Positions 3,599 to 19,281 of a stretch of 33,322 nt of DNA are shown one piece after another (within the stretch, counting starts at the first letter, position 1; the number at the start of each line of letters is the position of its first letter). The notes below the pieces were generated by a model. It worked only from the letters and a program-made list of their open reading frames with translations. It made no database searches and was not told the origin of the DNA. The DNA is from a virus. The stretch lies in IMG/VR virus record IMGVR_UViG_3300042731_002354, positions 1 to 33,322 of that record. One strand, 5' to 3'. The translations under genes and the position numbers were made by a program.

Positions 3599-5635
3599 AT
3601 GTCTAAAGCACATGAACTTGGTCAGTTAGGACATATTGTTAGTGTAAGTGATGGTATTTCTACTACAGTCTCTATTTCTGGAATAGTATCTGCTATTTCA
3701 TTTAGTGGAGATGGTGCTAATTTATCAAATACTGGTGCTATTGTATCTGCTGGAGCGACTGTTGGAACTCAAAGAGTAGCACTAACTGATATCACTTCTG
3801 GTATCATGACAAGTGCAGCAACTGATTCTGCACTTGTATATGAATCTTCTACTGGTACTTTAAGTGCTACTTCATTTAGTGGAGATGGTGCTAATTTATC
3901 AAATACTGGTGCTATTGTATCTGCTGGTGCTGGAACTCAAAGAGTAGCACTAACTGATATTACTTCTGGTATTATGACGAGTGCTGCTACAGATTCTGCA
4001 CTTACATATGATTCTTCTACTGGTACTTTAAGTGCTACTGCATTTAGTGGAGATGGTAGTAATATTACTAATGCTGGTGCAACTCTTTCAGCAACTTCTG
4101 GTACAGAGAGAGTTGTTCTAACAAATTTGACTAGTGGTGCAATGACTGCATCTTCCACTGATTCAAATTTAACTTTTGATGCTTCTACTGGTACTTTAAG
4201 TGCTACTGCATTTAGTGGAGATGGTGCCAATCTTTCTAATACTGGTGCAACATTGAGTGCTGCGAGTGGTCAACAGAAAGTTGTACTAACAAGTCTCACT
4301 AGTGGTGTAATGACCACTGCAGCAACTGACTCTGCACTTAATTACAATCAAAGTAATAATACTTTGGATGCGAATATAACTGGAATATCTTCTGTTACCG
4401 CAGAATGGACCATCGGTGCTGATGCTGGAAATACTTATTACACATTTTCGGGTCCTGGTCTTGATGGTACAGAACAAGATCCAAATATCTATCTAACACG
4501 AGGTCAGATATATAAGTTTACTAATAATATGGGTGCTCACCCATTTAGAATTCAGAGCACTGCAAATGGATCTCTTGGAACACAATATAATGATGGACTT
4601 TCAACAAATGATGTTGATAATGGGACAATAGAATGGGATGTTCAGATGGATTCCCCATCAACTCTTTATTATCAGTGTACCTCTCATACGTCAATGGGTG
4701 GTGCAATTTATATTGCAGATCCAAACTCAATATCAGTGGAAAGTTTAAGTTATAGTACTACTACTAATGTTGTTGAGACACATGGTAATAATCTTGCTAG
4801 AGTTAATGGTCAATGGACAGTTAACTCTAGTTCTGCATCAAATAATATGGCTTATAATCCAAGACTACTAGTAAAGAATAATTATGCAACTCAATATGGT
4901 GGGCAACGAAGCTCTCAAGGTGTTATGGTAATTAAGTCCGTGGGAGAAAGCAATTTTATTATTGGTGGTTATAGTAGTATGAATATTAACCATGATAAAT
5001 ATTGGGGAGCAGCACACAATACTTGTCTTGGTTATAACTCTGGACTTGCTGTTGATAGTAGTGATACTCATAATACTGCTATAGGATCAAATACAGCTAC
5101 TGCAACAGGAAACTCCTACTATAAAAATACTGCTATAGGATCTCAGGCAGGTAGTAACGGAACACCATCTGGTACTGGTAATTGTACGGCGATTGGATAT
5201 AATGCACAATGGGGTGCTAGCGCATTAAATAAAGTAGTCCTTGGTGATGCGAATATTGCAACACTAAGTTGTAATGTTCAAACAATTTCATCTCTGTCTG
5301 ATCGTAGAGATAAAACTAATATTGTAGATATACCCGTTGGATTAAATTATATTAATGCATTGAGACCAGTTAAATTTGATTGGCTAAGACGTGATGGAAG
5401 TAGTGAGGGAAGAAAAGCATTTGGATTTATTGCTCAAGAATTAAATGAAGTTCAAGAACAATTTGGATATAAAGAATATACCAATTTGGTGCTTGAACAA
5501 GATCCAGATAAACTTGAAGCTGCTCCAATGAATAGTTATCCAATTCTTGTTAAGGCAGTTCAAGAATTATCACAACAAAATCAAGATCTATTAAGAAGAA
5601 TTGAAGAACTGGAGAATAGATTGAACAATGAATAA
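3599..5635 (+). CDS. Tail fibre with cupredoxin-like and S74 chaperone domains
   Basis: This 678-residue fibre has clear modules. Residues 1-20 share the N-terminus of the preceding fibre. Residues 35-260 hold four repeats of 56-58 residues (SFSGDGANLSNTGA type). Residues 270-374 form a cupredoxin-like domain with H314 (AHPF) and C360-x2-H363-x2-M366 before GG. Residues about 490-560 carry AIGS-type repeats like trimeric adhesin heads. Residues 567-678 are an S74 intramolecular chaperone domain with S567-DRRD-K572, GFIAQEL and a final coiled coil (LLRRIEELENRL). In known S74 proteins this domain assembles the trimer and then cuts itself off before the Ser of SDxRxK, which would leave about 566 mature residues. 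The family assignment is firm; copper binding is inference. Confidence 0.9.
   Translation: MSKAHELGQLGHIVSVSDGISTTVSISGIVSAISFSGDGANLSNTGAIVSAGATVGTQRVALTDITSGIMTSAATDSALVYESSTGTLSATSFSGDGANLSNTGAIVSAGAGTQRVALTDITSGIMTSAATDSALTYDSSTGTLSATAFSGDGSNITNAGATLSATSGTERVVLTNLTSGAMTASSTDSNLTFDASTGTLSATAFSGDGANLSNTGATLSAASGQQKVVLTSLTSGVMTTAATDSALNYNQSNNTLDANITGISSVTAEWTIGADAGNTYYTFSGPGLDGTEQDPNIYLTRGQIYKFTNNMGAHPFRIQSTANGSLGTQYNDGLSTNDVDNGTIEWDVQMDSPSTLYYQCTSHTSMGGAIYIADPNSISVESLSYSTTTNVVETHGNNLARVNGQWTVNSSSASNNMAYNPRLLVKNNYATQYGGQRSSQGVMVIKSVGESNFIIGGYSSMNINHDKYWGAAHNTCLGYNSGLAVDSSDTHNTAIGSNTATATGNSYYKNTAIGSQAGSNGTPSGTGNCTAIGYNAQWGASALNKVVLGDANIATLSCNVQTISSLSDRRDKTNIVDIPVGLNYINALRPVKFDWLRRDGSSEGRKAFGFIAQELNEVQEQFGYKEYTNLVLEQDPDKLEAAPMNSYPILVKAVQELSQQNQDLLRRIEELENRLNNE
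3701..4378 (+). repeat. Four tandem fibre repeats of 168-174 bp
   Basis: Copies begin at about 3701, 3875, 4043 and 4211, each starting TTTAGTGGAGATGG, and encode units of 56-58 residues. The first two are nearly identical over long stretches, so they arose recently or are kept alike by recombination. The repeats keep frame throughout. Confidence 0.85.
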
Positions 5636-5638: not shown

Positions 5639-5659
5639 ATTTCAAATCGCAAGTTGCTT

Positions 5660-6031
5660 ATGACTCCTTTGCACTCTCCAAAAGAATACTTGTTCAATCT
5701 TTATACAACAAGTTCTGGGGAGGCAAAGCGATTGTGGAGAAAGCATATAAAAGAAAAATGGGATTATGCTTGTGCATATTGTGGATCTAATGACACTTTA
5801 ACAATTGATCATGTAGTTCCAAGATCTAAGGGTGGTAGCGACTTTACTAAAAACACGGTTTGTTGCTGTCACTCTTGTAATCAAGATAAGGGTCATACTC
5901 CTTGGGAAGAATGGTATTTCTCTCAGGAGTTTTTTAGTATTCAAAGGTATGAAAAAATTAAAGAGTGGATAAAACCAGAACCACCAAAAAATTTATTTAC
6001 TTATGGGAATAGACGTAATATTGTTTCTTAG
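5660..6031 (+). CDS. HNH endonuclease, free-standing
   Basis: ATG at 5660 gives 123 residues (an in-frame TTG at 5654 is weaker). An HNH nuclease core is clear: zinc pair C38-x2-C41 (CAYCG), the catalytic IDHVVPRSKGGS with D50-H51, an Asn in the FTKNTV segment, and the second zinc pair C70-x2-C73 (CHSCN) followed by K77. It would cut double-stranded DNA. A lone HNH gene between fibre genes, with late promoter motifs on both sides, fits a homing-type endonuclease that spreads by recombination in neighbouring homologous sequence. No intron or terminase neighbour is present. A packaging or host-DNA-degrading role cannot be excluded from sequence alone. Confidence 0.92.
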   Translation: MTPLHSPKEYLFNLYTTSSGEAKRLWRKHIKEKWDYACAYCGSNDTLTIDHVVPRSKGGSDFTKNTVCCCHSCNQDKGHTPWEEWYFSQEFFSIQRYEKIKEWIKPEPPKNLFTYGNRRNIVS

Positions 6032-6036
6032 TGCTT

Positions 6037-6044
6037 TATAAATA
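6037..6044 (+). promoter_or_regulatory. T4-type late promoter (TATAAATA)
   Basis: This is an exact TATAAATA late box, five bases after the HNH stop and 40 bases before the next start. It would drive the unit 6085-10645 (four closely spaced genes including the protease). Confidence 0.75.
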
Positions 6045-6084: not shown

Positions 6085-7953
6085 ATGGCAACTCCGATTA
6101 GGATAAAACGCTCAGCAGTACCTGGAAAGGTACCTGCAGATGGAGCACTACAATACGGCGAATTAGCTCTTAATGTTAGTGATGGAGAACTCTATGCAGT
6201 AAGAGATAGAGTTGGTGTTGGTTCTTATGTTGCTAAACTTGGTGCTGGTGCTACTGTTACTAACATAATATATGTAACTCCAGATGGAAAAGATACAAAT
6301 ACGGGAGAAAGACTCGGAGAAGCAAAAAGAACAATTAAAGCAGCAGTCGCAGACGCAGCAGAAGGAACAATTGTTAAGGTTGCTGCTGGATCTTATCTAG
6401 AAGATAATCCAATTGTTCTTCCAAAACAAATTAGTATCGTTGGTGATAGTTTGAGAGAAGTATCGATTACTCCTCAAAACCAAGGTGATTTATTTTATGT
6501 TACTAATGGAAATTATATTAGTGATTTATCATTTACGGGTGCATCTAATAGCGGCGCATTATTTTCATTCAATCCCAACAAACCAGAATATATAAATCAA
6601 TCTCCATATATTAGAAACTGTACTAATTTTATACCCGATAGTATTGGTATAAAAGTTGATGGTACATATGCAATTGGACCAACGAAAAGTATGGTTTCCG
6701 ATTCTTTCACACAATATAATTCAAATGGAATTGGTGCCTCAATGACTAATGAGGGATATGCCCAATTAGTTGCATTGTATACTATTTGTACAGATAAATC
6801 TGTCTTTGTTGGTAATGGTGGACAATGTGATTTGAATGCATCTAATAGTTCTTTTGGAAATTATGGTTTAGTTTCTGATGGTATAAGCACGGTAAAATAT
6901 ACCGGTCTTTTACAAGAAGCTACTGATGCTGGTGTTGACGAGTTTAAAGTCTTAATTGATCAACCATCATATAGAATAGGTAATATAGAATATGATAATG
7001 TAAGTGGATTAGCTACAGTTACTCTATCTCAACCTCACAATTACGTTGTTGGTGTATCATACACAATGGGAAATGCGTATTTTTCTGTTAATGAATCATC
7101 AGAATTAGTACCAATTCCAAATACAAATAATGGTGATAATGGAATATTTGAAGTTCATTCCATTCCTTCTAACAATCAATATACTTCATATCTTGGACCA
7201 TCTACTTTTAGTGGATACGTGTATGAACCAAACACGGGAGAAACTAAAAAATATGCTGTTAGACCGTACAATGGGCAGATAGTTTATTTTGATATACCAT
7301 ACTATTTTGTAAATAAAATAACTATAGATGATGGTGGATCTGGATATACTTCTGTTCCAAACGTAACAATAACTAATCCACCAACTGACTTTGGTATTCC
7401 TGCAGTTGCAAGTGCAGACATTGAAAATGGATCTGTAACTTCAATAACAATAGTAAATGCGGGTAGAGGATTTATTGGTGGGAATCCTCCAACGATAACT
7501 ATTGATCCTCCAGATTCGGGGACGACTGCAACAGCGTCGTTAGAACTAGCACCAATATTTTATACTGTTGGTAGTTCAACTCCTATTTCTGCTGGTATTT
7601 CTACAATCACACTCACTGAAAAAGTTCCTTATGAATTCTCTTTCGGACAAAATGTTGACTTCCATGTTCAAAGTAAAATACTTGCATCATCCCATGCTTT
7701 TGAATATGTAGGAACAGGAGTCACTATTAATCAAGCAGTACCAAACAGAGGTGGTGTTCCCATTCAAGAAAATGAAACTGATGAAATAGATGGTGGTATT
7801 GTTGTTTACACCAGTACTGATCAACTTGGTAGATTTAGAATTGGTGATGGAATTGTTATTGACCAATCAACGGGAACAATAGGTGGTGATGATTATACAC
7901 GGAGTTTATTTTCAACAATGACGCCACTTATCTTAGCACTAGGAGGAGACTAA
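6085..7953 (+). CDS. Beta-helix tail fibre protein (622 aa)
   Basis: This 622-residue structural protein starts with a phage fibre leader (IKRSAVPGKVPADGALQYGELALN, residues 7-30). Residues 62-275 resemble a right-handed beta-helix of the pectin-lyase fold (YVTPDGKDTN, then AKRTIKAAVADAAEGTIVKV and VLPKQISIVGDSL). The middle holds beta repeats such as ITIDDGGSGYTSVPNVTI. Near the C-terminus is DQLGRFRIGDGIVIDQSTG, a pattern repeated in the 1000-residue fibre, and the end is hydrophobic (PLILALGGD). Beta-helix fibres in phages bind or cut surface sugars, but no catalytic site can be picked out here. Its last codons (GGAGGAG, 7942-7948) double as a strong ribosome binding site for the next gene. 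Confidence 0.85.
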   Translation: MATPIRIKRSAVPGKVPADGALQYGELALNVSDGELYAVRDRVGVGSYVAKLGAGATVTNIIYVTPDGKDTNTGERLGEAKRTIKAAVADAAEGTIVKVAAGSYLEDNPIVLPKQISIVGDSLREVSITPQNQGDLFYVTNGNYISDLSFTGASNSGALFSFNPNKPEYINQSPYIRNCTNFIPDSIGIKVDGTYAIGPTKSMVSDSFTQYNSNGIGASMTNEGYAQLVALYTICTDKSVFVGNGGQCDLNASNSSFGNYGLVSDGISTVKYTGLLQEATDAGVDEFKVLIDQPSYRIGNIEYDNVSGLATVTLSQPHNYVVGVSYTMGNAYFSVNESSELVPIPNTNNGDNGIFEVHSIPSNNQYTSYLGPSTFSGYVYEPNTGETKKYAVRPYNGQIVYFDIPYYFVNKITIDDGGSGYTSVPNVTITNPPTDFGIPAVASADIENGSVTSITIVNAGRGFIGGNPPTITIDPPDSGTTATASLELAPIFYTVGSSTPISAGISTITLTEKVPYEFSFGQNVDFHVQSKILASSHAFEYVGTGVTINQAVPNRGGVPIQENETDEIDGGIVVYTSTDQLGRFRIGDGIVIDQSTGTIGGDDYTRSLFSTMTPLILALGGD

Positions 7954-7957
7954 TCTA

Positions 7958-8287
7958 ATGGCTTTATCTGCAAACATATTTAAAACAGTTACACAAGTTG
8001 CTTCATTAAGTGAAGTTGAAATTTATACAGCACCAACTGGATATACTGGTGTTGTTTTACTTGCTCAAGTTGCAAACATCGGTAGTTCTATGCATACTGT
8101 TTCTTTTTCACATAGAAGAAGTAGTACAACAACGGAAATTGTAAAAGATTTTGCAGTTGAGGGAAAAGATTCTGTAAGTTTAATACATGGAAAACTTACA
8201 CTACAGTCTGGAGATAAACTTGTTTTATCTGCTAGTGATGCAAGTAACATTAAATTTATTGGTAGTGTCTTAGAAACTCTAAACTAA
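7958..8287 (+). CDS. Small virion protein, paralogue of 13672-14001
   Basis: This 109-residue, all-beta-looking protein has no cysteine or membrane segment. A strong AGGAGGAG Shine-Dalgarno (7941-7948) sits nine bases before the ATG. It aligns end to end with the 109-residue product at 13672: TVTQVASLSEVEIYTAPTG matches SIGITTTDVYTVPGATTST, and both close with a GDK(L/I) segment and SVLE. The pair probably plays an equivalent role next to two different fibres, as a connector, cap or fibre-tip protein. No domain of known function is recognised. Confidence 0.8.
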   Translation: MALSANIFKTVTQVASLSEVEIYTAPTGYTGVVLLAQVANIGSSMHTVSFSHRRSSTTTEIVKDFAVEGKDSVSLIHGKLTLQSGDKLVLSASDASNIKFIGSVLETLN

Positions 8288-8288
8288 A

Positions 8289-8759
8289 ATGGCTAAATTT
8301 CTTTCCGGTAGACAAAGACAATTAAATGTTGGTATTACTTCATATACCGCAGATTCAACAGTCCTTCAGGTTACTGGAAGAGTTGGTATTGGAACAACAG
8401 TATCACAAACTCCCTTACAGATTGATACCTTTGGTTTAGAAACAAAGATAGGAACTTTTACTGCTAGTGCTGGAGTTACTCAAGATATTGATTCTTTTAC
8501 TATATCAGAAACTGATTTTAAAGTTGTAGAATATACGGTTCATTTACAAAATGCATCGAGGTTTCAAGTTCAGAAAGTTTTGTTGATGCAAAACGGAACT
8601 ACAGCATATTCTCAAGAATATGGAATTATGTATGATCCTGATTTGATTGTTTCTATTGGATCCACAATCTCTGGTGGTTTATGTAAACTTCAGGTAACCC
8701 CAGAGTTAGGTATAAGTGGATTGACCACATATAGATTCAGTAGGGGGTCAATATTCTAA
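8289..8759 (+). CDS. Small structural protein (156 aa)
   Basis: This 156-residue protein has a short basic N-terminus (MAKFLSGRQRQLNVG) and the fibre-type phrase VLQVTGRVGIGTTV, similar to the 1000-residue fibre, followed by a beta-rich domain (residues 48-156). It begins two bases after the upstream stop, and its own TAA shares one base with the ATG of the protease gene (8757-8761), so the two are probably translated together. Its function is not known. Tight coupling makes it a candidate partner, carrier or fibre anchor for the protease. Confidence 0.75.
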   Translation: MAKFLSGRQRQLNVGITSYTADSTVLQVTGRVGIGTTVSQTPLQIDTFGLETKIGTFTASAGVTQDIDSFTISETDFKVVEYTVHLQNASRFQVQKVLLMQNGTTAYSQEYGIMYDPDLIVSIGSTISGGLCKLQVTPELGISGLTTYRFSRGSIF

Positions 8760-10645
8760 TGAGAGCAAGATGGGTTGATGGAACACGGAGACTTGTTCTT
8801 GATCAAGATAGAAATGTTGTTGAACCATATACTGTTTGTGTTACTAATAGTTCAATCTATAACTGGTGGAATGTACATAATTTATTAATAAATGATGGTG
8901 GAGAAGAGTTCATACCAAATAGATCTGTAATTTGTCTTAGTGAGATGAACTTTTCTTCTAGGAGATCTGTTTATCTTTTATTTGAAAGTGAAGTGGAAGT
9001 ATTGCGTAATCATCCACTAATTGAGTGGGTTGAAAGGGCATCGATGTTTAATCGGATTAAATGGGAACAAAGGAGAAATGATGAGTTTTTTGATAGGCAT
9101 ATTGATACTAATAGGTATAAACAAGATATTGTAAATAAAAGATCTTCTGGTAATCCTGGATCTGAATTAAATTTTACTCAGTGGGGAGTATATAGGCATC
9201 AATCAAAACAAAATAATTTTGTTGGACTGGGAACAACTTCAACTAGTAGTGATGTTCAGTATTCTTTGACTGGTAAAAATGTTGATGTTGTTATAATGGA
9301 TACTGGTGTTCGATGGGATCATCCAGAATTTTTGAAGTTGGGGGTTACAAATTTTTTAGGTGAAGATAGTACTAGAGTTAAAGATATATTAATTCATGGT
9401 TCTAGTAACTATGGAATTGATTGGTCATCACATGGACTGGTTGATCCTGGAACGGGAATTTTATCTAACTATACAATAGCAAATGTTTTACAGTCATCAG
9501 AATTTAATGGATCCTGGCACGGTAGTCATGTTGCTGGAACTGCTGCTGGTAATCAATTCGGTGTCGCTTTTGATGCAAATATATGGTCAATAGCTTGTGT
9601 GGATAGAAGTGATGTTGGATTTACAGATCCTTCTGATGGATTTGATTACATTAGAATATGGCATAAGAATAAACCAATTAATCCACAAACTGGAAGAAGA
9701 AATCCAACTATTGTGAATTGTAGTTGGGGACTTAGACAATTTGTTTATTGGTCTGACGTTAATACCTATCCATATACTGTAAATTTTAGAGGTGATACTT
9801 ATAATTCTTCTGATGTTGAGGGATCATCTACATTTTTACCAGCAGTTTATTATATGGATATAAACGGTGGTTATTATGAATTCACTTCCACTCATACATC
9901 TTCACAAGCAACTGCTGATGAATTGTTTGATGATGAAGAATGTAAAGATATTATAGTTATTTGTTCTGCAGGCAACTCTGGAAATGGAAATGGAAAGCAA
10001 GATATTGAAGGTGGTGATGATTATGATAATAAATTTTTGACTGGATTATTTTATTATGGTGATGTTGCTGCAGAGACGAGAGGTTCTGTTTCTGAACATT
10101 TTAATCGTTCTGGTACACCAGCAATTACTCATCAGGGGCAGGATGATGCTCCCATTGTTGTTGGATCATTAGATTCTACAGTATCTGTTAGTGGAATAAC
10201 TTCAGAAAGAAAAGGATCTTACTCAAATAATGGTCCGGCAATTGATATTTGGTCGGCAGGATCAACAATATTAAGTCCATATGACGATGGATATCAAGAT
10301 CCTAGAAATAATTCTTTTTATAATGATTATCTAAATGGAACTAGTATGGCTGCACCAAATGTTACGGGTGTAGTTGCTTTACATTTAGAATCTAAACCAT
10401 TATCAACAAGAGTTGATGTTAGAAAATGGTTAGATAATCATGCATCATCCGATATAAGTGATAATTTTTTAGATGCAACTGGTAATCTTGATCCCGTTGG
10501 TGCTGGTACTTCTCAACTTTATTGGGATGATGCATATGGGTTGAGAGGATCTCTTAAAAAGGTTTTGTATAATCCATATTCTAATAATGAAGTTCCTTCA
10601 GTATCTGGAATAACACTAGATCAAATATCATTTACTCAATCATAA
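8759..10645 (+). CDS. Subtilisin-like serine protease (S8 family)
   Basis: This 628-residue protein has a complete subtilase active site: D181 (VVIMDTGV), H254 (SWHGSHVAGT), oxyanion Asn N406 (CSAGNSG) and nucleophile S529 (NGTSMAAP). The order and spacing fit family S8, with a long insert between H254 and N406. Residues about 68-95 (SVYLLFESEVEVLRNHPLIE) resemble the end of an I9-type pro-peptide that would fold and inhibit the enzyme until removed. No signal peptide is evident, which fits a virion-borne or cytoplasmic maturation protease rather than a secreted one. The start overlaps the upstream stop by one base. A role cutting host surface proteins or neighbouring fibres is inferred from its place in the fibre block. 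Confidence 0.95.
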   Translation: MRARWVDGTRRLVLDQDRNVVEPYTVCVTNSSIYNWWNVHNLLINDGGEEFIPNRSVICLSEMNFSSRRSVYLLFESEVEVLRNHPLIEWVERASMFNRIKWEQRRNDEFFDRHIDTNRYKQDIVNKRSSGNPGSELNFTQWGVYRHQSKQNNFVGLGTTSTSSDVQYSLTGKNVDVVIMDTGVRWDHPEFLKLGVTNFLGEDSTRVKDILIHGSSNYGIDWSSHGLVDPGTGILSNYTIANVLQSSEFNGSWHGSHVAGTAAGNQFGVAFDANIWSIACVDRSDVGFTDPSDGFDYIRIWHKNKPINPQTGRRNPTIVNCSWGLRQFVYWSDVNTYPYTVNFRGDTYNSSDVEGSSTFLPAVYYMDINGGYYEFTSTHTSSQATADELFDDEECKDIIVICSAGNSGNGNGKQDIEGGDDYDNKFLTGLFYYGDVAAETRGSVSEHFNRSGTPAITHQGQDDAPIVVGSLDSTVSVSGITSERKGSYSNNGPAIDIWSAGSTILSPYDDGYQDPRNNSFYNDYLNGTSMAAPNVTGVVALHLESKPLSTRVDVRKWLDNHASSDISDNFLDATGNLDPVGAGTSQLYWDDAYGLRGSLKKVLYNPYSNNEVPSVSGITLDQISFTQS

Positions 10646-10648
10646 ATA
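10641..10648 (+). promoter_or_regulatory. T4-type late promoter (CATAAATA)
   Basis: CATAAATA contains the TAA stop of the protease gene (10643-10645) and lies 14 bases before the next ATG, implying a very short leader. Confidence 0.65.
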
Positions 10649-10662
10649 CCTAAAAACCCGAA

Positions 10663-13600
10663 ATGGCTAATAAAGATTTTGGTGTAAAGAAAATTAATCT
10701 TACTGGGGCTTCTGGAACTCCAACCATTTCTAGTCCCAATAATTTAAATCTAAACGCCACAACTGTTGCTATTAGTACAGATGTTTCGGTTGGTGGTGAA
10801 GTAGTATCGGATGTTATAGTTTCTTCTCCATATAGTGTTGGTATAGGAAGTACAATTCCAACAACTAAATTAGATGTATCTGGTGATTCAAAATTTTCTG
10901 GTGTAATAACCGCTGATGGATTAGTTGTTACTGGAGTTTCTACATTTCAAACAAATATTGGTGGAACACTTAATCCAGATAGATTAGTTGTAAGTGGTGT
11001 TTCAACATTTCAAGATGATATCAATTTAGGAAATAACGATAAAATTAAACTTGGTGGATCAGATGATCTTCAAATTTATAACGACGGATTTGATTCATAT
11101 ATTGTAGATGCTGGCGTTGGCGATCTTCATATCAGAGGAACTTCAGCAATTAAATTTGAAAATGCTGTAGGATTAGAAACGTATGCTAAATTTAATGTTG
11201 ATGGAGCAACAGAATTATATTATGATAATGTAAAGAAATTTGAGACAACATCTGATGGTATAAAGATTGGTGAAATTGGAATCAGTACAGTTGGTGTAAT
11301 TACTGGTCCATCAGAACTTATTATTGATCCCGCTGGAGTTGGAGATAATACTGGATCAGTAAGAATTAAAGGCGACTTATTTGTTGATGGCGAGCAGTTT
11401 ATTGTTGACTCATCTAGGATTGAACTTGCGGACTTTAATGTTGGAATTGCTTCCACTGTTTCATCTAATTCTCTGCTTGATGGTGCTGGTATTGGTATTG
11501 GTGATACTTCAATAAGAAAAACATTAACCTTTAATGATAGTAGTGATAGTTTAAAATCAAGTGAAAACTTTGATATTGCTGATGGTAAATCATATAAAAT
11601 TAATGGAACAAATATATTAACGTCTGTTCAATTAACTATTCCAAATCTTAGTGTTTCTGGAATAGGAACAATTGAAACTCTTGATGTTGCAACTGGAACT
11701 ATTGATACATTAACTTCTACTTCATTAAATGCAACCAATTTGGTAGTATCTGGATTATCAACTTTTACAGGTATTGGAACTTTTGAAAATGATTTATATG
11801 TTGGTGGTCAATTACATGCACCTTCTCTAAATGTTCAGGGCGGAGTTTCTTTAGGACAAGATCTCTCAACTAGAAATTTAACAGCATCTGGATTTTCTGA
11901 GTTCACTGGTATTGCTACATTTAATGGTGGTATAGATGGTGATCTCAATGCACTTGGTAAGACTTACTATGTTGCAACAACTGGTAACAATTCAGATGCT
12001 GGTGATAATATAAATCAACCTTTCCTTACTGTTGCACAAGCACTGAGTGTTGCTACGAATGGTGATATTATCAATATTTCTGCTGGTACTTACGAAGAAA
12101 CTTGTCCTCTTACTATTCCTAGAGGTGTAACAGTTAAGGGTGCTGGACTTAGAGCAACAACAATTAGACCAACAACTGCAACACAGCAAGAAAATATCTT
12201 CTTATTAAATGATATTTCTACCATTGAGGATCTTACAATCAAAGGATCCTACTACGATTCTACTGCTGATACAGGTTATGCATTCTCATATGCAACTGGT
12301 ATTGCTATTACAACTAGATCGCCATATGTTCAGAGAATAACCGTACTCAACACTGGATCTTCTGTTACTGCAGATGACCCATATGGTTATGATACTGTAG
12401 ACTCACCCCCAACTAGTTACATTGCTGGTCGTGGTGCATTAATTGATGGATCTAAAGTTACTTCCGACTCTTTGGAAGCAGGAATGTTGTTCAATGAAGT
12501 AACATTCTTTACTCCAAACAATAGAGGTATTGTTCTTACTAATGGTGCTCGTGCAGAATATCTAAACTGTTTTCACTATTTTGCATCACAAGCTATTGTT
12601 GGTTTAGCAGGAACTGTTGGTATTGCTGGAACTGCGGACGCTAGACTTAAGTTTACTAATCCTGGTGTTACTCCATCAGTTAATGACGTTGTTAAATTAC
12701 GTGAGGGTGGAACTGTAGTTGCCGTTGGTACAATTACAGAATATAGTAATCCATATGCTAAGATTGACGGTCCTGGTTTTGGTAAGTTTGTTGTTGCTGG
12801 TGCAGGAACTACACAAGACTTAAACTTCTATCAGTCTGATGGGACGACACATACTGGTATAGCAAGTGCTATTGCCCTGGCTGACTATACTATGTTCGGT
12901 GCTGAGATGCGCTCTGTTGGTTGTGCTGTTGAATATGGATCTCAAGGTGTAGTTGCTGATGGTAATGGCGTTAAGTTGAGATTATTTGCGACAAACTTTA
13001 ATCATGTTGGGTCTGGTAAAGATATGACCAATGACGCAACTTTAACCATTCAGGCAAATGAAGTGGTTGAAACAAATGATGGTCAAGTATCATATGTAAG
13101 TATTGACCAGGCTGGTGATTTTAGGGTTGGTGATGCCTTTGTCGTAAGTCAAGAAACTGGTAATGTTTCTTTTGCAGCAACCACTTACAACTTAGAGACG
13201 ACTGGAGAACTAACAGTTACTGATGGTGGATCAAACGAATCTGTTATAACTCCAACAAGTTTGACGGTTGGGAATATTCAAATTGCTGCAAATACATTAT
13301 CCTCCACGTCTGGTGATATTAATATTGATCCTGCAGGTTCAAATGAAACAAATGTTACTGGAAACTTAAACGTTACTGGTATACTTACCGCATCAGTTCT
13401 TCAAGTTGCTGCAGTTCAAAAAGGTGACTCTTCAATTGCGATTGATGATACTGGATCTGATGGAACAATACGTTTGAATACTGATGGGACTGAGGGTGTT
13501 AGAGTTACAAATGATCAAAAGGTTGGTATTAATTCTTCCTCACCAGCGTATAGATTGGATGTTCAAGGAGATATAAATACCTCTACGGATGTAAAAATTA

Positions 13601-13665
13601 ATGGAACTAGCGTTCTTACAAGTGCAAGTGATGAAGCAATCGCCCTCGCAATCGCATTAGGATAG
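10663..13665 (+). CDS. Large beta-helix tail fibre (1000 aa)
   Basis: This fibre-type protein has exactly 1000 residues. Its N-terminal third is made of beta repeats with phrases such as VVSGVSTFQDDINLG and YNDGFDSYIVDAGVGDLHIR, widespread in marine phage fibres. Residues from about 435 (YYVATTGNNSDAGD) to about 720 look like a pectin-lyase-type right-handed beta-helix similar to that in the 622-residue fibre (TVAQAL, GDIINISAGTYEE, TIPRGVTVKGAG). DQAGDFRVGDAFVVSQETG follows, again shared. The C-terminus ends with a small hydrophobic tail (DEAIALAIALG). It is probably a trimeric receptor-binding or side fibre. No catalytic residues are identifiable. Confidence 0.88.
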   Translation: MANKDFGVKKINLTGASGTPTISSPNNLNLNATTVAISTDVSVGGEVVSDVIVSSPYSVGIGSTIPTTKLDVSGDSKFSGVITADGLVVTGVSTFQTNIGGTLNPDRLVVSGVSTFQDDINLGNNDKIKLGGSDDLQIYNDGFDSYIVDAGVGDLHIRGTSAIKFENAVGLETYAKFNVDGATELYYDNVKKFETTSDGIKIGEIGISTVGVITGPSELIIDPAGVGDNTGSVRIKGDLFVDGEQFIVDSSRIELADFNVGIASTVSSNSLLDGAGIGIGDTSIRKTLTFNDSSDSLKSSENFDIADGKSYKINGTNILTSVQLTIPNLSVSGIGTIETLDVATGTIDTLTSTSLNATNLVVSGLSTFTGIGTFENDLYVGGQLHAPSLNVQGGVSLGQDLSTRNLTASGFSEFTGIATFNGGIDGDLNALGKTYYVATTGNNSDAGDNINQPFLTVAQALSVATNGDIINISAGTYEETCPLTIPRGVTVKGAGLRATTIRPTTATQQENIFLLNDISTIEDLTIKGSYYDSTADTGYAFSYATGIAITTRSPYVQRITVLNTGSSVTADDPYGYDTVDSPPTSYIAGRGALIDGSKVTSDSLEAGMLFNEVTFFTPNNRGIVLTNGARAEYLNCFHYFASQAIVGLAGTVGIAGTADARLKFTNPGVTPSVNDVVKLREGGTVVAVGTITEYSNPYAKIDGPGFGKFVVAGAGTTQDLNFYQSDGTTHTGIASAIALADYTMFGAEMRSVGCAVEYGSQGVVADGNGVKLRLFATNFNHVGSGKDMTNDATLTIQANEVVETNDGQVSYVSIDQAGDFRVGDAFVVSQETGNVSFAATTYNLETTGELTVTDGGSNESVITPTSLTVGNIQIAANTLSSTSGDINIDPAGSNETNVTGNLNVTGILTASVLQVAAVQKGDSSIAIDDTGSDGTIRLNTDGTEGVRVTNDQKVGINSSSPAYRLDVQGDINTSTDVKINGTSVLTSASDEAIALAIALG

Positions 13666-13671
13666 TAAAAT

Positions 13672-14001
13672 ATGGCTAACGCATTTAAAAGTTATACAAA
13701 GGCATCAATTGGTATTACAACTACCGATGTTTATACTGTTCCTGGAGCAACAACTTCTACTGTGATTGGATTTGCATTAGCAAATAAAACAGGTAGCGGT
13801 ACAGTTTATGCTAACGTTCTTGTGGATAAAAGCACTGGGGACGATATTTATCTTATTAGAAATGCTGCATTATATGACGGTTCTGGATTTGAATTTAATG
13901 GTGGTAATAAAATATGCTTAGAAACTGGAGATAAAATACAAGCTTCTTCTGATACGGAAAGTAGCGTAGATATTATTGTTAGTGTACTAGAGCAAACCTG
14001 A
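13672..14001 (+). CDS. Small virion protein, paralogue of 7958-8287
   Basis: This 109-residue protein begins MANAFKSYTKASIG, is predicted to be all beta, and ends DIIVSVLEQT. It matches the product of 7958-8287 in length and arrangement (both have a TDVYTVP/VEIYTAP strand, a GDK segment and SVLE near the end). It follows the 1000-residue fibre by six bases and precedes the collagen-like fibre by 12, with an AGGA-type ribosome site over its stop serving the next gene. The repeated pairing of a 109-residue protein with a large fibre suggests an adaptor or tip role. This is inference. Confidence 0.8.
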   Translation: MANAFKSYTKASIGITTTDVYTVPGATTSTVIGFALANKTGSGTVYANVLVDKSTGDDIYLIRNAALYDGSGFEFNGGNKICLETGDKIQASSDTESSVDIIVSVLEQT

Positions 14002-14013
14002 GGATAAACTGAG

Positions 14014-17000
14014 ATGGGATATAACGGAAAAAAACCAGTAAGGTTAGAAGTTGAAGTATATGATTCTCGTGGTAATGCTGGTGCTGCTAGCTCTATATTA
14101 GTTTCCACTGGTGCTGGAGTTAGTTGGACAGCACCTTATGATGCTGGACTTCAGGGCATTCAGGGATTGCAAGGTCCTCAAGGTACTCAAGGCACACAAG
14201 GTCTTCAGGGTTTACAAGGTATACAAGGACTTCAAGGATCTCAGGGTACTCAGGGTTCTCAAGGAACAACTGGAACTCAGGGTTTTTATGGTACTCAAGG
14301 TCTTACTGGATTAACTGGTGCAGACTCGACAGTTGCTGGTCCTCAGGGAACAGTTGGTTTTCAAGGTGTTCAAGGTCCACAAGGAACTCAAGGCACTCAA
14401 GGTGCTCAAGGTACTCAGGGATCTCAAGGTACTCAAGGTACTCAAGGTACTCAGGGATCTCAGGGAATTATTGGATCTCAACCCATTGCACAGACATATA
14501 CTATAACTGTTGCAGGTGGAGTATTTTATATTGATGGTGTACAGCAAGATACTTTATATCTTTTAAGGGGTCAGAAATACGTTTTTGATCAGTCTGATTC
14601 CTCCAATTCATCTCATCCATTTTATTTCTCTACAACTAGTGATGGCACTCATAACAGTGGTACTCAGTATACAGATGGTTGGACTTACACTGGATCTGCT
14701 GGCACTGATGGTGAAGGTATACTTATAGTACCTTATGATGCTCCTGATACATTATATTATTATTGTGGAAATCACTCTGGAATGGGTGGTTCATCTGTAG
14801 TAAAAGATCTTAATGCTGACTCCCTTCAAGGAACTCAAGGCACTCAAGGTCTTCAGGGTGCTCAAGGTGCTCAAGGTCTTCAGGGATCTCAAGGAACTAC
14901 TGGTGCTCAGGGTCTTCAGGGTACTCAAGGCACTCAAGGAAGTCAAGGAACTCAAGGTGTTCAAGGTGAGACTGGTACTCAAGGTTTTATTGGATCTCAA
15001 GGAGTTCAGGGTATAGTTGGTAGTTTTGGTGGAGCTACATTTGACTATACATTTACAACATCAACTTCTGGAGATCCTGGACAAGGAAAACTTGGATTTA
15101 ATAACGCCAATGTTACTTTAGCAACCACTCTTTTAATAGATGACGTTGATGGAACTCCTGTAGATATACAGACATATCTTAGAACAATCGATGATTCTTC
15201 ATCAACAATAAAGGGTCATTTTAAGATATCAAATAAATTAGATGCATCTGATTTCGCTTTCTTTACAATTTCTTCTGTAACTGAACAAAGTGGATATTTT
15301 GAAGTTTCTTGTGCATATGTTAGTGGTCCATCAACATCATTCAGTAATAATGAAGAAATAATCATAACTTTTGCTAGAACTGGTGATAAGGGAGACACTG
15401 GACTACAAGGTACAGTTGGTACTCAAGGTGCTGATGGTATTCAAGGTTTCTACGGTACTCAAGGTACTGATGGTCTTCAGGGTACAATTGGTGAAACAGG
15501 TGCTGACTCTACTGTAGCTGGTCCTCAAGGTTTAGATGGTGTTCAAGGCACTACTGGTTCGGGACTTCAGGGTTCTACAGGAACTCAAGGTGCTGATGGA
15601 ACTCAAGGCACTGATGGTCTTCAGGGTACAACTGGTACTGGACTTCAGGGTACGACAGGCACTCAAGGTATTACAGGAACTCAAGGTACTAACGGTCTTC
15701 AGGGTACAATTGGTGAAACAGGTGCCGACTCGACCGTGGCTGGTCCTCAAGGTACTACAGGAACTCAAGGAACTGATGGTCTTCAGGGTACAACTGGTTC
15801 GGGACTTCAGGGTTCTACAGGAACTCAAGGTGCTACAGGAACTCAAGGTACTAACGGTCTTCAAGGAATTACTGGAGAAACAGGTGCCGACTCGACCGTG
15901 GCTGGTCCTCAAGGTACTACAGGAACTCAAGGCACTGATGGTCTTCAAGGCATTACCGGTTCTGATGGTGCTGACTCTACCGTACCTGGTCCTCAAGGCA
16001 CTACAGGAACTCAAGGCACTGATGGTCTTCAAGGAACTACTGGAGAAACAGGTGCTGATTCAACCGTAGCTGGTCCTCAAGGCACTGATGGTCTTCAGGG
16101 TACAACTGGTGCAAGTGTTCAAGGAACTACTGGTGCTGATTCTACCGTAGCTGGTCCTCAAGGTACTGATGGTGCTCAGGGAACTTCTGGTTCCGATGGA
16201 TCTGATGGAGGTGCAGGACCTCAAGGTACTGATGGTACTCAAGGTCCAGAAGGAACTGGAACAGCATTAACTGTTCAACAAATTCAGGGTGCTGGGGGAA
16301 CAGTTGACGTATCTGTTGCTAATGTAAATACAATTCAATTTGACCAACAAAGTGGATTTGCAGTTACTGACAATGGTGGTGGTGAAGTATTCATTAATTT
16401 TGGTAGTGCTTTTAACCCATGGTATTTGAAAGCAGAATCTGGTGGTTATGTCTCTGGAGGTACACTTGATGCAGAGGGTGAAGAAGAACTTCAGTTTGTT
16501 GCTGGTAATGGTATCCAATTAATTTCTAATACTACTAGTTCACCTAAAGAATTGAAGATTGCTTTAAATGGTTCTGTTGGTGGTAGTGGTAATCAAGGTG
16601 CTGATGGTGCTCAAGGTTCTGATGGTAGTTTTGGTGGAGCTACGTTTGATTACACTTTCGATTCTGCTACTGCAAATCAAAATCCTGGAAGTGGAAACCT
16701 AAGACTTAATAATTCAAATTTACCTAGTGCAACCATATTATACATTTCAAGTACTGATGATAGTTCAACAAATATTAGTAATTACTTAAATACGGTTGAT
16801 GATTCTACATCAACAATAAAGGGTCATTTAAAAATATCAAATAAAAGTGATCCAGATAATTTTGTTTTATATACCATTAGTGCTTTAAGTTTTTCTTCTT
16901 ACTATATTATTAGTGTTCAATTTGTTTCTGGTAGTGTAACAACTTTTAGTGATACTGATGTTTTAATAACCTTTGCTAGAACTGGTGATAAGGGTGATAT

Positions 17001-19281
17001 AGGTATTCAAGGTACTATTGGTCCTCAAGGTTTAGATGGTATTCAAGGTTCTCCTGGTACTGGAAGTCAGGGTTCTGATGGTGCATTTGCATCTCAAGGT
17101 ATTCAAGGAACTGTTGGTGACGCTTATCCTGGTCATTACACTTACATTCTTACAACTAGTGCTAATCCACAAACTAACAATGATAGAGTTAAAGTAACTT
17201 TTAGTTCTGGATCATCACCACAAAATGCAACTCAATTTGAATTTGGTGAGAATAGTCGATATCGAGATGATTTGAGTTATGAATTTAATACTTTAGATAC
17301 AGCTATTTCCAATGGTGATACAATTTACATTTATGTTCGTAATAGAGATTCTACTTATTCAGCGTCTTATCAAGAGACATTTGTTTATGAGGTTACTGGA
17401 AAGGGAACAGGAAACACTACTAGTGGAACATATGATACTTATACTTATGCCGTAAATCATTTATCTGGAAATCGTACATTTTTCTGGAGCAATTATAATA
17501 CTGAATTTTGGTTTGTCGTATCTGGACAGACTGGACCTCAAGGTATTCAAGGAAATGATGGTGCATATGCATCTCAAGGTATTCAAGGAAATGACGGTGT
17601 TCAGGGACCAGTTGGTGCGGGAAAAATTGGTATAACTTATGGATATGATGGTAGTAGTTATAGATTAGTCTTTGGTGGAGATTTTACCACAAGGAGTGCT
17701 AGTGTTCCAAGTCTTGGAAATTCAGTAACTTTAAATATTTCCAAATGGGATGTCGATAATAATGCAAATGTCCTTCCACAGTTTACACAGAATAATCGTG
17801 GATACATTACAATAACTCATGCTCAGGGACAAGATAGATTTTTTATTAGTAATACTACATATTACACTCAATCTAATATCAATAGTTCTACATCTCAGTC
17901 TAACGCCGAGATTGCTGTTTATGATGGATACTATCTTGGCGGATGGCATAATGATAATAGTCATCTCTCATGGCAATGGACCACTTCACCTCAGGAAGAA
18001 GTTGGAATCCATTTTGCTGGTTCAATTCAAGGTATTCAAGGTTCTGATGGTGCTCAAGGTACTTTTGGTATTCAAGGTACCGATGCTTCTGCTCTTGCTG
18101 CTCAAGGAACTGCTGGTACTCAAGGAACCACCGGTGCCGACTCGACCGTGGTTGGTCCTCAAGGAACTACTGGTTCTCAAGGAACCATCGGTGCTGACTC
18201 TACCGTACCTGGTCCTCAAGGAACTACAGGACCTCAAGGTACCACTGGAGAAACAGGTGCCGATTCTACTGTAGCTGGTCCTCAAGGTACTGATGGTGCT
18301 CAGGGAACTTTAGGTTTTCAAGGTATTCAAGGAGTACAAGGTCCTCAAGGTTTAGATGGTGCATATGCATCTCAAGGTGTCCAGGGTACTGAAGGGGTTG
18401 GTGCTCCAGGAGAACTGAAGTATTCGTGGGATTCTAGTTCTGCCAGCGTTGGGGAATTTACTGCTACGTTTAGTAGCGGTAGTACTGGAAATAATGCTAC
18501 AGTATTAAAATTCAACAAACGACAAAATGATGCATTTATCAGTGATGTGAGTGGGAGGTGGGAGCAATTGGATACTGCTCTCAGTAATGGACAAACATGT
18601 TACATTGGTTATAGACTATCATATCCTAATGGAAACGTAACAGATTCTATTGTTTGGGAAGTTACTGGAAAGAGCACTGGTAATACGCCAGGACCACCTT
18701 CATCCCCATCTGTATTTGTATATGCAGTATCTAAAGCATGGGGTAATGGTTCATCTTCCTTTGGTAACTATACTGGTAGACTTAATTTATTTTCCATCAT
18801 TCTTGAAGGTATTCAAGGTGTTCAGGGTGTAACTGGTGCTGGAATTCAAGGTATAACTGGTACTCAAGGTGCTGATGGTATTCAAGGTAATGATGGACTT
18901 GGTGTTCAAGGTGCAGATGGTGCGTATGCATCCATTGGTCTGCAAGGAATTACTGGTGCAGGACTTCAGGGTTCTGATGGAGCTCAAGGTATTCAAGGAA
19001 TAGTTGGTGCTGACTCTATCGTACCTGGTCCTCAAGGAACTACTGGTCTCCAGGGTGCAGATGGTCCTCAAGGAACTGCTGGAACTATTGGAATTGATGG
19101 AGATCCAGGATCTCAAGGTACTGATGGTATTCAGGGTATTATAGGAGTTCAGGGTAATCTAGGTACTCAAGGTTTAGATGGTGCATTTGCATCTCAGGGT
19201 GCTCAGGGAACTACTGGTGGTGCTGGTGCTGCTGGAGGAGTCAGTTTTGCATTAGCGGTTGCGCTCGCTGCTGCTTTATAA
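14014..19281 (+). CDS. Giant collagen-like tail fibre with cupredoxin-like domain
   Basis: This 1755-residue protein has many Gly-X-Y blocks (GTQ, GLQ, GIQ, GAQ triplets), which in known phage and bacterial proteins form collagen-like triple helices without hydroxyproline. Collagen blocks alternate with globular domains. Residues 160-266 are cupredoxin-like (H201, C251-x2-H254-x2-M257). Two copies of an FGGATFDYTF domain lie at about 15022-15393 and 16628-17000. A separate beta domain follows ALTVQQIQGAGG. Two copies of a domain ending EVTGK(G/S)TGNT lie at about 17116-17520 and 18406-18800. The unit GADSTVAGPQG recurs many times. The C-terminus is hydrophobic (VSFALAVALAAAL), like the ends of two other fibres here. 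It is probably a long flexible trimeric fibre. Confidence 0.92.
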   Translation: MGYNGKKPVRLEVEVYDSRGNAGAASSILVSTGAGVSWTAPYDAGLQGIQGLQGPQGTQGTQGLQGLQGIQGLQGSQGTQGSQGTTGTQGFYGTQGLTGLTGADSTVAGPQGTVGFQGVQGPQGTQGTQGAQGTQGSQGTQGTQGTQGSQGIIGSQPIAQTYTITVAGGVFYIDGVQQDTLYLLRGQKYVFDQSDSSNSSHPFYFSTTSDGTHNSGTQYTDGWTYTGSAGTDGEGILIVPYDAPDTLYYYCGNHSGMGGSSVVKDLNADSLQGTQGTQGLQGAQGAQGLQGSQGTTGAQGLQGTQGTQGSQGTQGVQGETGTQGFIGSQGVQGIVGSFGGATFDYTFTTSTSGDPGQGKLGFNNANVTLATTLLIDDVDGTPVDIQTYLRTIDDSSSTIKGHFKISNKLDASDFAFFTISSVTEQSGYFEVSCAYVSGPSTSFSNNEEIIITFARTGDKGDTGLQGTVGTQGADGIQGFYGTQGTDGLQGTIGETGADSTVAGPQGLDGVQGTTGSGLQGSTGTQGADGTQGTDGLQGTTGTGLQGTTGTQGITGTQGTNGLQGTIGETGADSTVAGPQGTTGTQGTDGLQGTTGSGLQGSTGTQGATGTQGTNGLQGITGETGADSTVAGPQGTTGTQGTDGLQGITGSDGADSTVPGPQGTTGTQGTDGLQGTTGETGADSTVAGPQGTDGLQGTTGASVQGTTGADSTVAGPQGTDGAQGTSGSDGSDGGAGPQGTDGTQGPEGTGTALTVQQIQGAGGTVDVSVANVNTIQFDQQSGFAVTDNGGGEVFINFGSAFNPWYLKAESGGYVSGGTLDAEGEEELQFVAGNGIQLISNTTSSPKELKIALNGSVGGSGNQGADGAQGSDGSFGGATFDYTFDSATANQNPGSGNLRLNNSNLPSATILYISSTDDSSTNISNYLNTVDDSTSTIKGHLKISNKSDPDNFVLYTISALSFSSYYIISVQFVSGSVTTFSDTDVLITFARTGDKGDIGIQGTIGPQGLDGIQGSPGTGSQGSDGAFASQGIQGTVGDAYPGHYTYILTTSANPQTNNDRVKVTFSSGSSPQNATQFEFGENSRYRDDLSYEFNTLDTAISNGDTIYIYVRNRDSTYSASYQETFVYEVTGKGTGNTTSGTYDTYTYAVNHLSGNRTFFWSNYNTEFWFVVSGQTGPQGIQGNDGAYASQGIQGNDGVQGPVGAGKIGITYGYDGSSYRLVFGGDFTTRSASVPSLGNSVTLNISKWDVDNNANVLPQFTQNNRGYITITHAQGQDRFFISNTTYYTQSNINSSTSQSNAEIAVYDGYYLGGWHNDNSHLSWQWTTSPQEEVGIHFAGSIQGIQGSDGAQGTFGIQGTDASALAAQGTAGTQGTTGADSTVVGPQGTTGSQGTIGADSTVPGPQGTTGPQGTTGETGADSTVAGPQGTDGAQGTLGFQGIQGVQGPQGLDGAYASQGVQGTEGVGAPGELKYSWDSSSASVGEFTATFSSGSTGNNATVLKFNKRQNDAFISDVSGRWEQLDTALSNGQTCYIGYRLSYPNGNVTDSIVWEVTGKSTGNTPGPPSSPSVFVYAVSKAWGNGSSSFGNYTGRLNLFSIILEGIQGVQGVTGAGIQGITGTQGADGIQGNDGLGVQGADGAYASIGLQGITGAGLQGSDGAQGIQGIVGADSIVPGPQGTTGLQGADGPQGTAGTIGIDGDPGSQGTDGIQGIIGVQGNLGTQGLDGAFASQGAQGTTGGAGAAGGVSFALAVALAAAL
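14146..19240 (+). repeat. 9-bp-periodic collagen-coding repeats
   Basis: Blocks of GGN-NNN-CAA/CAG codons run at about 14146-14480, 14824-15020, 15385-16260, 16588-16632, 16984-17120, 17524-17622, 18025-18415 and 18805-19240. Longer near-identical units also occur, for example about 51 bases shared by 15721-15771 and 15883-15933, 162 bases apart. Such DNA is prone to slippage and recombination in multiples of 9 bases, which changes fibre length without breaking frame. Confidence 0.9.

Follow-up and report, generated by a model that had tools for sequence, protein, structure and literature searches.

A subtilisin-like peptidase gene paired with a gp9-like domain among the fibre genes of a presumed T4-like cyanophage

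A subtilase gene between fibre genes

The DNA analysed here, the window, is the whole 33,322-base stretch at positions 1 to 33,322 of the virus record IMGVR_UViG_3300042731_002354. On the strength of its gene list, which includes psbA, transaldolase, fibre genes and phoH, we take it to be a T4-like cyanophage. P-SSM2 carries a similar gene block, and a megablast search returned no near-identical phage record. A first-pass annotation had placed a full subtilisin-like protease of 628 residues at 8759-10645 on the plus strand, inside a fibre operon, and we recovered this reading frame as described. The features of the locus are as follows.

6038..6044, plus strand: ATAAATA, late-promoter-like, ahead of the unit starting at 6085 (motif scan)
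6085..7953, plus strand: tail-fibre gene heading the putative late unit (homology, promoter pattern)
7958..8287, plus strand: small gene of 109 aa, phrog_1276, probably in the same late unit as 6085 (P-SSM2 homologue 53% identical)
8289..8759, plus strand: partner gene of 156 aa, fibre-type N-terminus and gp9-like C-terminal domain (homology, model; stop overlaps subtilase start)
8289..8399, plus strand: fibre-type N-terminus of the partner protein, residues 1-37 (78% identity to the beginning of an S-SRM01 baseplate/fibre protein)
8421..8756, plus strand: beta-sandwich of the partner resembling the gp9 C-domain, about residues 45-156 (predicted structure)
8759..10645, plus strand: subtilase gene (S8, proteinase-K-like), 628 aa, T4-GC292 / phrog_9158 (reading frame, profiles, alignment, model)
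8822..9037, plus strand: predicted I9-like pro-segment, residues 22-93 (beta-alpha-beta-beta-alpha-beta in the model)
9167..10591, plus strand: catalytic domain, residues 137-611 (PF00082; model alignment to aqualysin I, proteinase K and relatives, Z 30-32)
9299..9301, plus strand: catalytic Asp codon, D181 (DTG motif, alignment)
9518..9520, plus strand: catalytic His codon, H254 (HGSHV motif, alignment)
9974..9976, plus strand: oxyanion-hole Asn codon, N406 (AGN motif, alignment)
10343..10345, plus strand: catalytic Ser codon, S529 (GTSMA motif, alignment)
10642..10648, plus strand: ATAAATA, late-promoter-like, overlapping the subtilase stop and preceding the next fibre gene (motif scan)
10663..13665, plus strand: downstream fibre/baseplate-wedge gene (homology)

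Tail-fibre and baseplate homologues flank the subtilase on both sides and the unit is headed by a late-promoter-like ATAAATA, in agreement with the proposed fibre operon. The coupling to a small structural gene that had been noted is also present, the upstream TAA and the subtilase ATG overlapping by one base (TAATG, base 8759). ATAAATA is close to the T4 late promoter, TATAAAT (PMC3037559). The copy ahead of gene 6085 lies 47 bp from it, start to start, and no plus-strand copy occurs between 6044 and 10642. Ten plus-strand copies are found in the window, six of them 10-55 bases 5' of gene starts (binomial tail 4e-7, from a gene list made by hand); the enrichment is in position only, not in copy number. 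Of the homologous loci, 34 of 63 have the motif 3' of the subtilase, and 1 of 64 has it directly 5'. A sigma-70 promoter scan of the window was uninformative, its sites being rarer than in shuffles. Because ATAAATA precedes gene 6085 and the next copy sits at the end of the subtilase, the genes at 6085, 7958, 8289 and 8759 probably constitute one late unit. The N-terminus of the gene at 10663..13665 has a homologue 3' of the subtilase in most loci examined.

Other genes of this region were recorded in passing. The 109-aa proteins encoded at 7958-8287 and 13672-14001 are related (~26% identical, phrog_1276), and each lies between fibre genes. An HNH endonuclease gene (5654-6031), also between fibre genes, has a 67% identical counterpart at the same place in P-SSM2. 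The fibre protein encoded at 3599-5635 carries a C-terminal S74 endosialidase-type chaperone domain, as well as a connector-type domain that resembles the phrog_9158 C-terminal part.

Active site, predicted fold and relatives of the subtilase

The 628-aa protein matches Peptidase_S8 (PF00082) over residues 172-563 with an E value of 6.2e-27 (95 bits against a cut-off of 21.8), and the phrog_9158 profile covers it at full length (E 6e-120, residues 22-624), an assignment that the fibre-gene context also fits. A chance reading frame was rejected on the basis of the profile match (E 6e-27), the 69 homologues and a dN/dS of 0.26. Matches to the NCBIfam mycosin and PrtP families lay far below those families' own cut-offs and were not accepted. 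PF08793 (2C_adapt) matched 27 of 51 family members, with a best E value of 0.0053, on a conserved HKxKPINPxTGRRNP stretch in the catalytic domain; this match is below cut-off in the window protein, and we took it as coincidental.

We aligned 69 distinct homologues, drawn from reference phages and 66 IMG/VR loci. All four active-site residues named in the first-pass annotation proved to be where it had put them, with D181 in DTG, H254 in HGSHV, N406 in AGN and S529 in GTSMA, giving an Asp-His-Ser triad in S8 order together with the Asn oxyanion residue. The Asp, His and Asn are kept in 69 of 69 homologues and the Ser in 68 of 68, the remaining sequence ending at a contig end before this position. 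Degraded active sites, which that annotation had listed as grounds for abandoning its reading, were thus found in none of the 69, and the catalytic residues are invariant down to ~25% identity. Across 68 close pairs the catalytic domain has a median dN/dS of 0.26, indicative of purifying selection. Together, the invariant catalytic set and this ratio indicate a protein under selection to keep its active site. This conservation bears on one alternative, in which the gene product would be a fibre-tip adhesin built on a subtilase scaffold, with catalysis secondary or vestigial. T4-type phages put tip proteins such as gp38 after a fibre gene, and the subtilase occupies a matching slot. A scaffold, however, would be expected to lose the four residues that every testable homologue retains, and we regard the adhesin reading as improbable.

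An AlphaFold2 model built from 51 sequences (mean pLDDT 80.8, pTM 0.85) has the subtilisin fold of S8 peptidases, aligning to aqualysin I with Z 32.5 and an rmsd of 2.5 over 273 residues and to proteinase K with Z 31. By motifs and predicted fold, the window gene encodes a complete S8 peptidase. It has its fold, catalytic motifs and N-terminal pro-segment in common with the proteinase K-like subtilases (aqualysin I, 4dzt; keratinase, 5wsl; proteinase K) and differs from them in its long inter-motif insertions, its phage structural gene context and its lack of a signal peptide. On this last point the first-pass annotation was borne out, as the N terminus contains no hydrophobic stretch (over the first 40 aa, the highest Kyte-Doolittle mean of any 11-residue segment is 0.73).

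That annotation had also described an I9-like pro-segment. The predicted structure agrees, in its beta-alpha-beta-beta-alpha-beta topology and in an alignment of pro-Tk-subtilisin (3afg) that starts at residue 20 of the model, whereas sequence profiles do not: Pfam Inhibitor_I9 matches 0 of 51 family members, and a profile of the segment searched against solved structures (PDB) retrieved no relative, only an irrelevant weak match. Residues 112-136 after the segment are modelled with low confidence, which is very low at residues 114-129, as expected for a linker between pro-segment and enzyme. In predicted structure the segment resembles an I9 pro-domain and probably works as one, while lying outside Pfam I9.

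The subtilase is a minority cyanophage gene. A tblastn search (E 1e-5) of 50,697 phage records matched it in 47, all of them cyanophages, compared with ~460 cyanophage-named records that hold phoH, or about one in ten. T4-like coliphages are absent from the matches, consistent with the earlier remark that the gene is not a usual T4 component, and no S8 domain was found in S-PM2, Syn9 or S-ShM2. P-SSM2 PSSM2_297, S-SCSM1 ORF228 and S-SSM7 SSSM7_232 belong to the window subtilase's family, T4-GC292 / phrog_9158. The P-SSM2 and S-SCSM1 members are 50-51% identical to the window protein (50% for PSSM2_297) and have in common with it the position between fibre genes and the catalytic set. The S8 peptidases of the jumbo phages Agrobacterium phage Atu_ph07 and Sinorhizobium phage Phosso have the domain with weak similarity only (E about 1e-3 to 1e-4). 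The family had already been annotated as the PF00082-bearing T4-GC292 in P-SSM2 and S-SSM7, and as a "subtilisin-like protease" in some records; our literature search on cyanophage subtilases found no study of the T4-GC292/phrog_9158 family. The present analysis adds to those annotations the partner domain and its gp9-like fold, the swapping of shafts, and a connection to virion data. Separately, some relatives carry large insertions inside the catalytic domain (a 1078-aa protein in L098/L099, 4285-7521, and a 907-aa protein in L078-L081).

Pairing with a gp9-like domain

The "small structural gene" of the first-pass annotation is a conserved, specific partner of the subtilase, which that annotation had missed. 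In its 156-aa product, a beta-sandwich predicted at residues 48-155, mostly with pLDDT >90, extends to the C terminus and superimposes on residues 169-283 of T4 gp9 (1qex) with Z 12.8 and an rmsd of 2.2 over 105 residues, at 12% identity. T4 gp9 is the long-tail-fibre connector, and its C-terminal part holds the long tail fibre. Outside this domain the partner departs from gp9. A short fibre N-terminus takes the place of the other two gp9 domains, N-terminal and middle, and the model shows no structure for residues 1-47, where its confidence is low. As modelled, the partner is gp9-like in one domain and is not a gp9. The sandwich also matches tailspike C-terminal domains (6e1r, Z 12.7) and a Klebsiella phage baseplate protein (9f4a, Z 10.6); because gp9-like folds also form tailspike C-terminal domains, a dock is not the sole reading of the domain.

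The gene directly 5' of the subtilase ends in this domain in 64 of the 73 homologous loci that could be examined, some near-identical contigs included, and the fibre shafts vary. Junctions with the subtilase over all examined loci are -4 bp (31), +1 (19) or -1 (18), with five exceptions. Pairwise comparison of 26 divergent representatives gave an adaptor-domain match in 323 of 325 pairs, whereas matches covering at least half of the shaft were confined to 29. For the reverse search, single adaptor sequences served as queries, because no alignment stretch was conserved enough for a whole-alignment pattern to be usable. It found 43 distinct loci, 39 with the subtilase directly 3'; a 92-aa ORF intervenes in L168 and one locus is too short to tell, so that the subtilase is next or one gene away in 40 of 42 testable loci. 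The queries originated in subtilase loci, and loci closely related to these are therefore over-represented in the sample. Each of the 18 annotated phage records in which the adaptor domain matched in full also has the subtilase, and the domain was not found in four reference cyanophages outside the family (S-PM2, Syn9, P-HM1 and S-ShM2). Taken in both directions, the pairing across differing shafts suggests that domain and protease behave as one shaft-changing unit.

Some loci count against this picture. The adaptor domain occurs without the protease in L096 and L180, and it went undetected beside the divergent subtilases of S-RSM4, ACG-2014e and S-CREM1. Congruence between protease and adaptor trees is modest (Mantel r 0.26, reached in 13 of 2000 permutations), and we do not use it as strong evidence for pairing. 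At L096:1479-2387, the protease slot holds a 138-aa ORF without a Pfam match, followed by the usual downstream fibre start. From this arrangement, the slot 3' of the adaptor may take different tip proteins, a point in favour of the adhesin reading.

The pairing suggests either a docking site or a substrate. The main rival to docking is a maturation protease that would cut the neighbouring fibre at assembly, for example by trimming or removing the upstream gp9-like domain, and might stay in the virion as a by-product, by analogy with prohead proteases and self-cleaving fibre chaperones. Gene overlap and near-strict pairing with the end domain of the upstream fibre would be expected, too, of a protease encoded beside its own substrate. 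Against it, the adaptor is a well-folded sandwich right at the C terminus. We judge maturation unlikely.

Virion evidence from a relative and a possible role at the host surface

The proposal of a virion-associated subtilase draws support through a relative, in the record label of the S-SCSM1 orthologue and in fusions to fibre-type domains. S-SCSM1 ORF228 is 51% identical to the window subtilase over 606 residues and continues into two ConA-like lectin domains (Laminin_G_3, 1.2e-25), a fusion that sets it apart from the window protein. At 156 aa, the upstream partner in the window is among the shortest seen. ORF228 is labelled "baseplate wedge subunit (virion protein)", a label that covers the whole 1411-aa chain. 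According to PMC9602691, mass spectrometry of CsCl-purified S-SCSM1 virions gave 45 proteins, including ORF91, ORF213 and ORF214. These three bear the virion label, which is absent from the predicted structural proteins ORF209, ORF211 and ORF215. We counted 48 such labels in the record, three above the 45 proteins stated in the paper, and the label is therefore a close but inexact proxy for mass spectrometry. Virion presence is also compatible with maturation, because the S-SCSM1 prohead protease bears the label too.

Fusions are seen in other phages. In the S-TIM54 orthologue (2140 aa; L005 6989-13411), an esterase-like region (BD-FAE, 7e-13) separates the pro-segment from the catalytic domain and is followed by Ig-type domains, and the ACG-2014e subtilase has a connector-type C-terminal domain (phrog_677). 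In P-HM1, an S8 domain lies within an 1832-aa protein that has an Ig-type domain and adjoins gp13. The P-HM1 S8 peptidase is named T4-GC518 in PMC3037559; the GenBank record, however, gives T4-GC518 as a protein of 111 aa and places the S8 domain in the following gene, PHM1_104 (T4-GC519, L119 6374-12315), possibly an off-by-one in paper or record. Repeated fusion to sugar-binding and structural domains points outward, toward the host surface. Lectin, esterase and Ig-type fusions would be unexpected for a maturation protease, and with the conserved gp9-like partner they favour a surface role over fibre maturation. A late protease working outside the virion, inside the host or at lysis and perhaps on host or phycobilisome proteins, would make the fibre neighbours incidental. 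The absence of a signal peptide allows such a cytoplasmic role; the gene nevertheless adjoins fibre genes in the loci examined, and with the structural-domain fusions in several phages and the S-SCSM1 virion label this makes a non-virion protease very improbable.

We consider it somewhat probable that the subtilase is a virion-borne zymogen, docked on the gp9-like fibre adaptor, that cleaves host surface proteins. A proteinase K-type zymogen would be expressed late together with the small adaptor encoded at 8289-8759 and would dock on the adaptor's gp9-like C-terminal domain. This would place the protease on a short fibre, at its tip or close to it, and in relatives on a long one. From what is known of the family, the I9-like pro-segment would hold the enzyme folded and blocked until self-cleavage. 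Once active, it might cut cyanobacterial surface proteins at adsorption, as glycan-cutting tailspikes cut capsules. Depolymerase tailspikes (6e1r, 5w5p) are likewise virion enzymes at fibre or spike positions, and some end in the sandwich fold of the partner; they cut glycans with beta-helix domains, whereas the window enzyme is a separate chain and predicted to cut protein. Counting against a surface-protein substrate, no protein S-layer is, to our knowledge, clearly established in Prochlorococcus hosts.

With slightly more doubt than belief, we also advance a broader proposal, that gp9-like socket and zymogen proteinase form a swappable fibre-tip cassette, moved whole among unrelated shafts, and that a class of T4-like viruses enters with help from proteolysis, not from glycan cutting. 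The phage-tail enzymes known to us nearly always cut glycans or peptidoglycan, and those described from tail fibres mostly act on sugars. A conserved protease that has a fibre partner of its own would suggest that its targets are surface proteins of marine picocyanobacteria, hosts for which phage receptors have been little characterised. The two genes are a unit open to direct expression and testing, which offers a testable role for T4-GC292, a family listed as hypothetical in the genomes of P-SSM2 and S-SSM7.

Farther along the window, a collagen-like fibre gene (14014-19281, 1755 aa) contains eight collagen-repeat stretches. Genes 3' of it encode glycosyltransferase (25032, 26400), methyltransferase (26400) and weak mannoside-phosphorylase-like (24017) domains, an arrangement that perhaps reflects fibre glycosylation.
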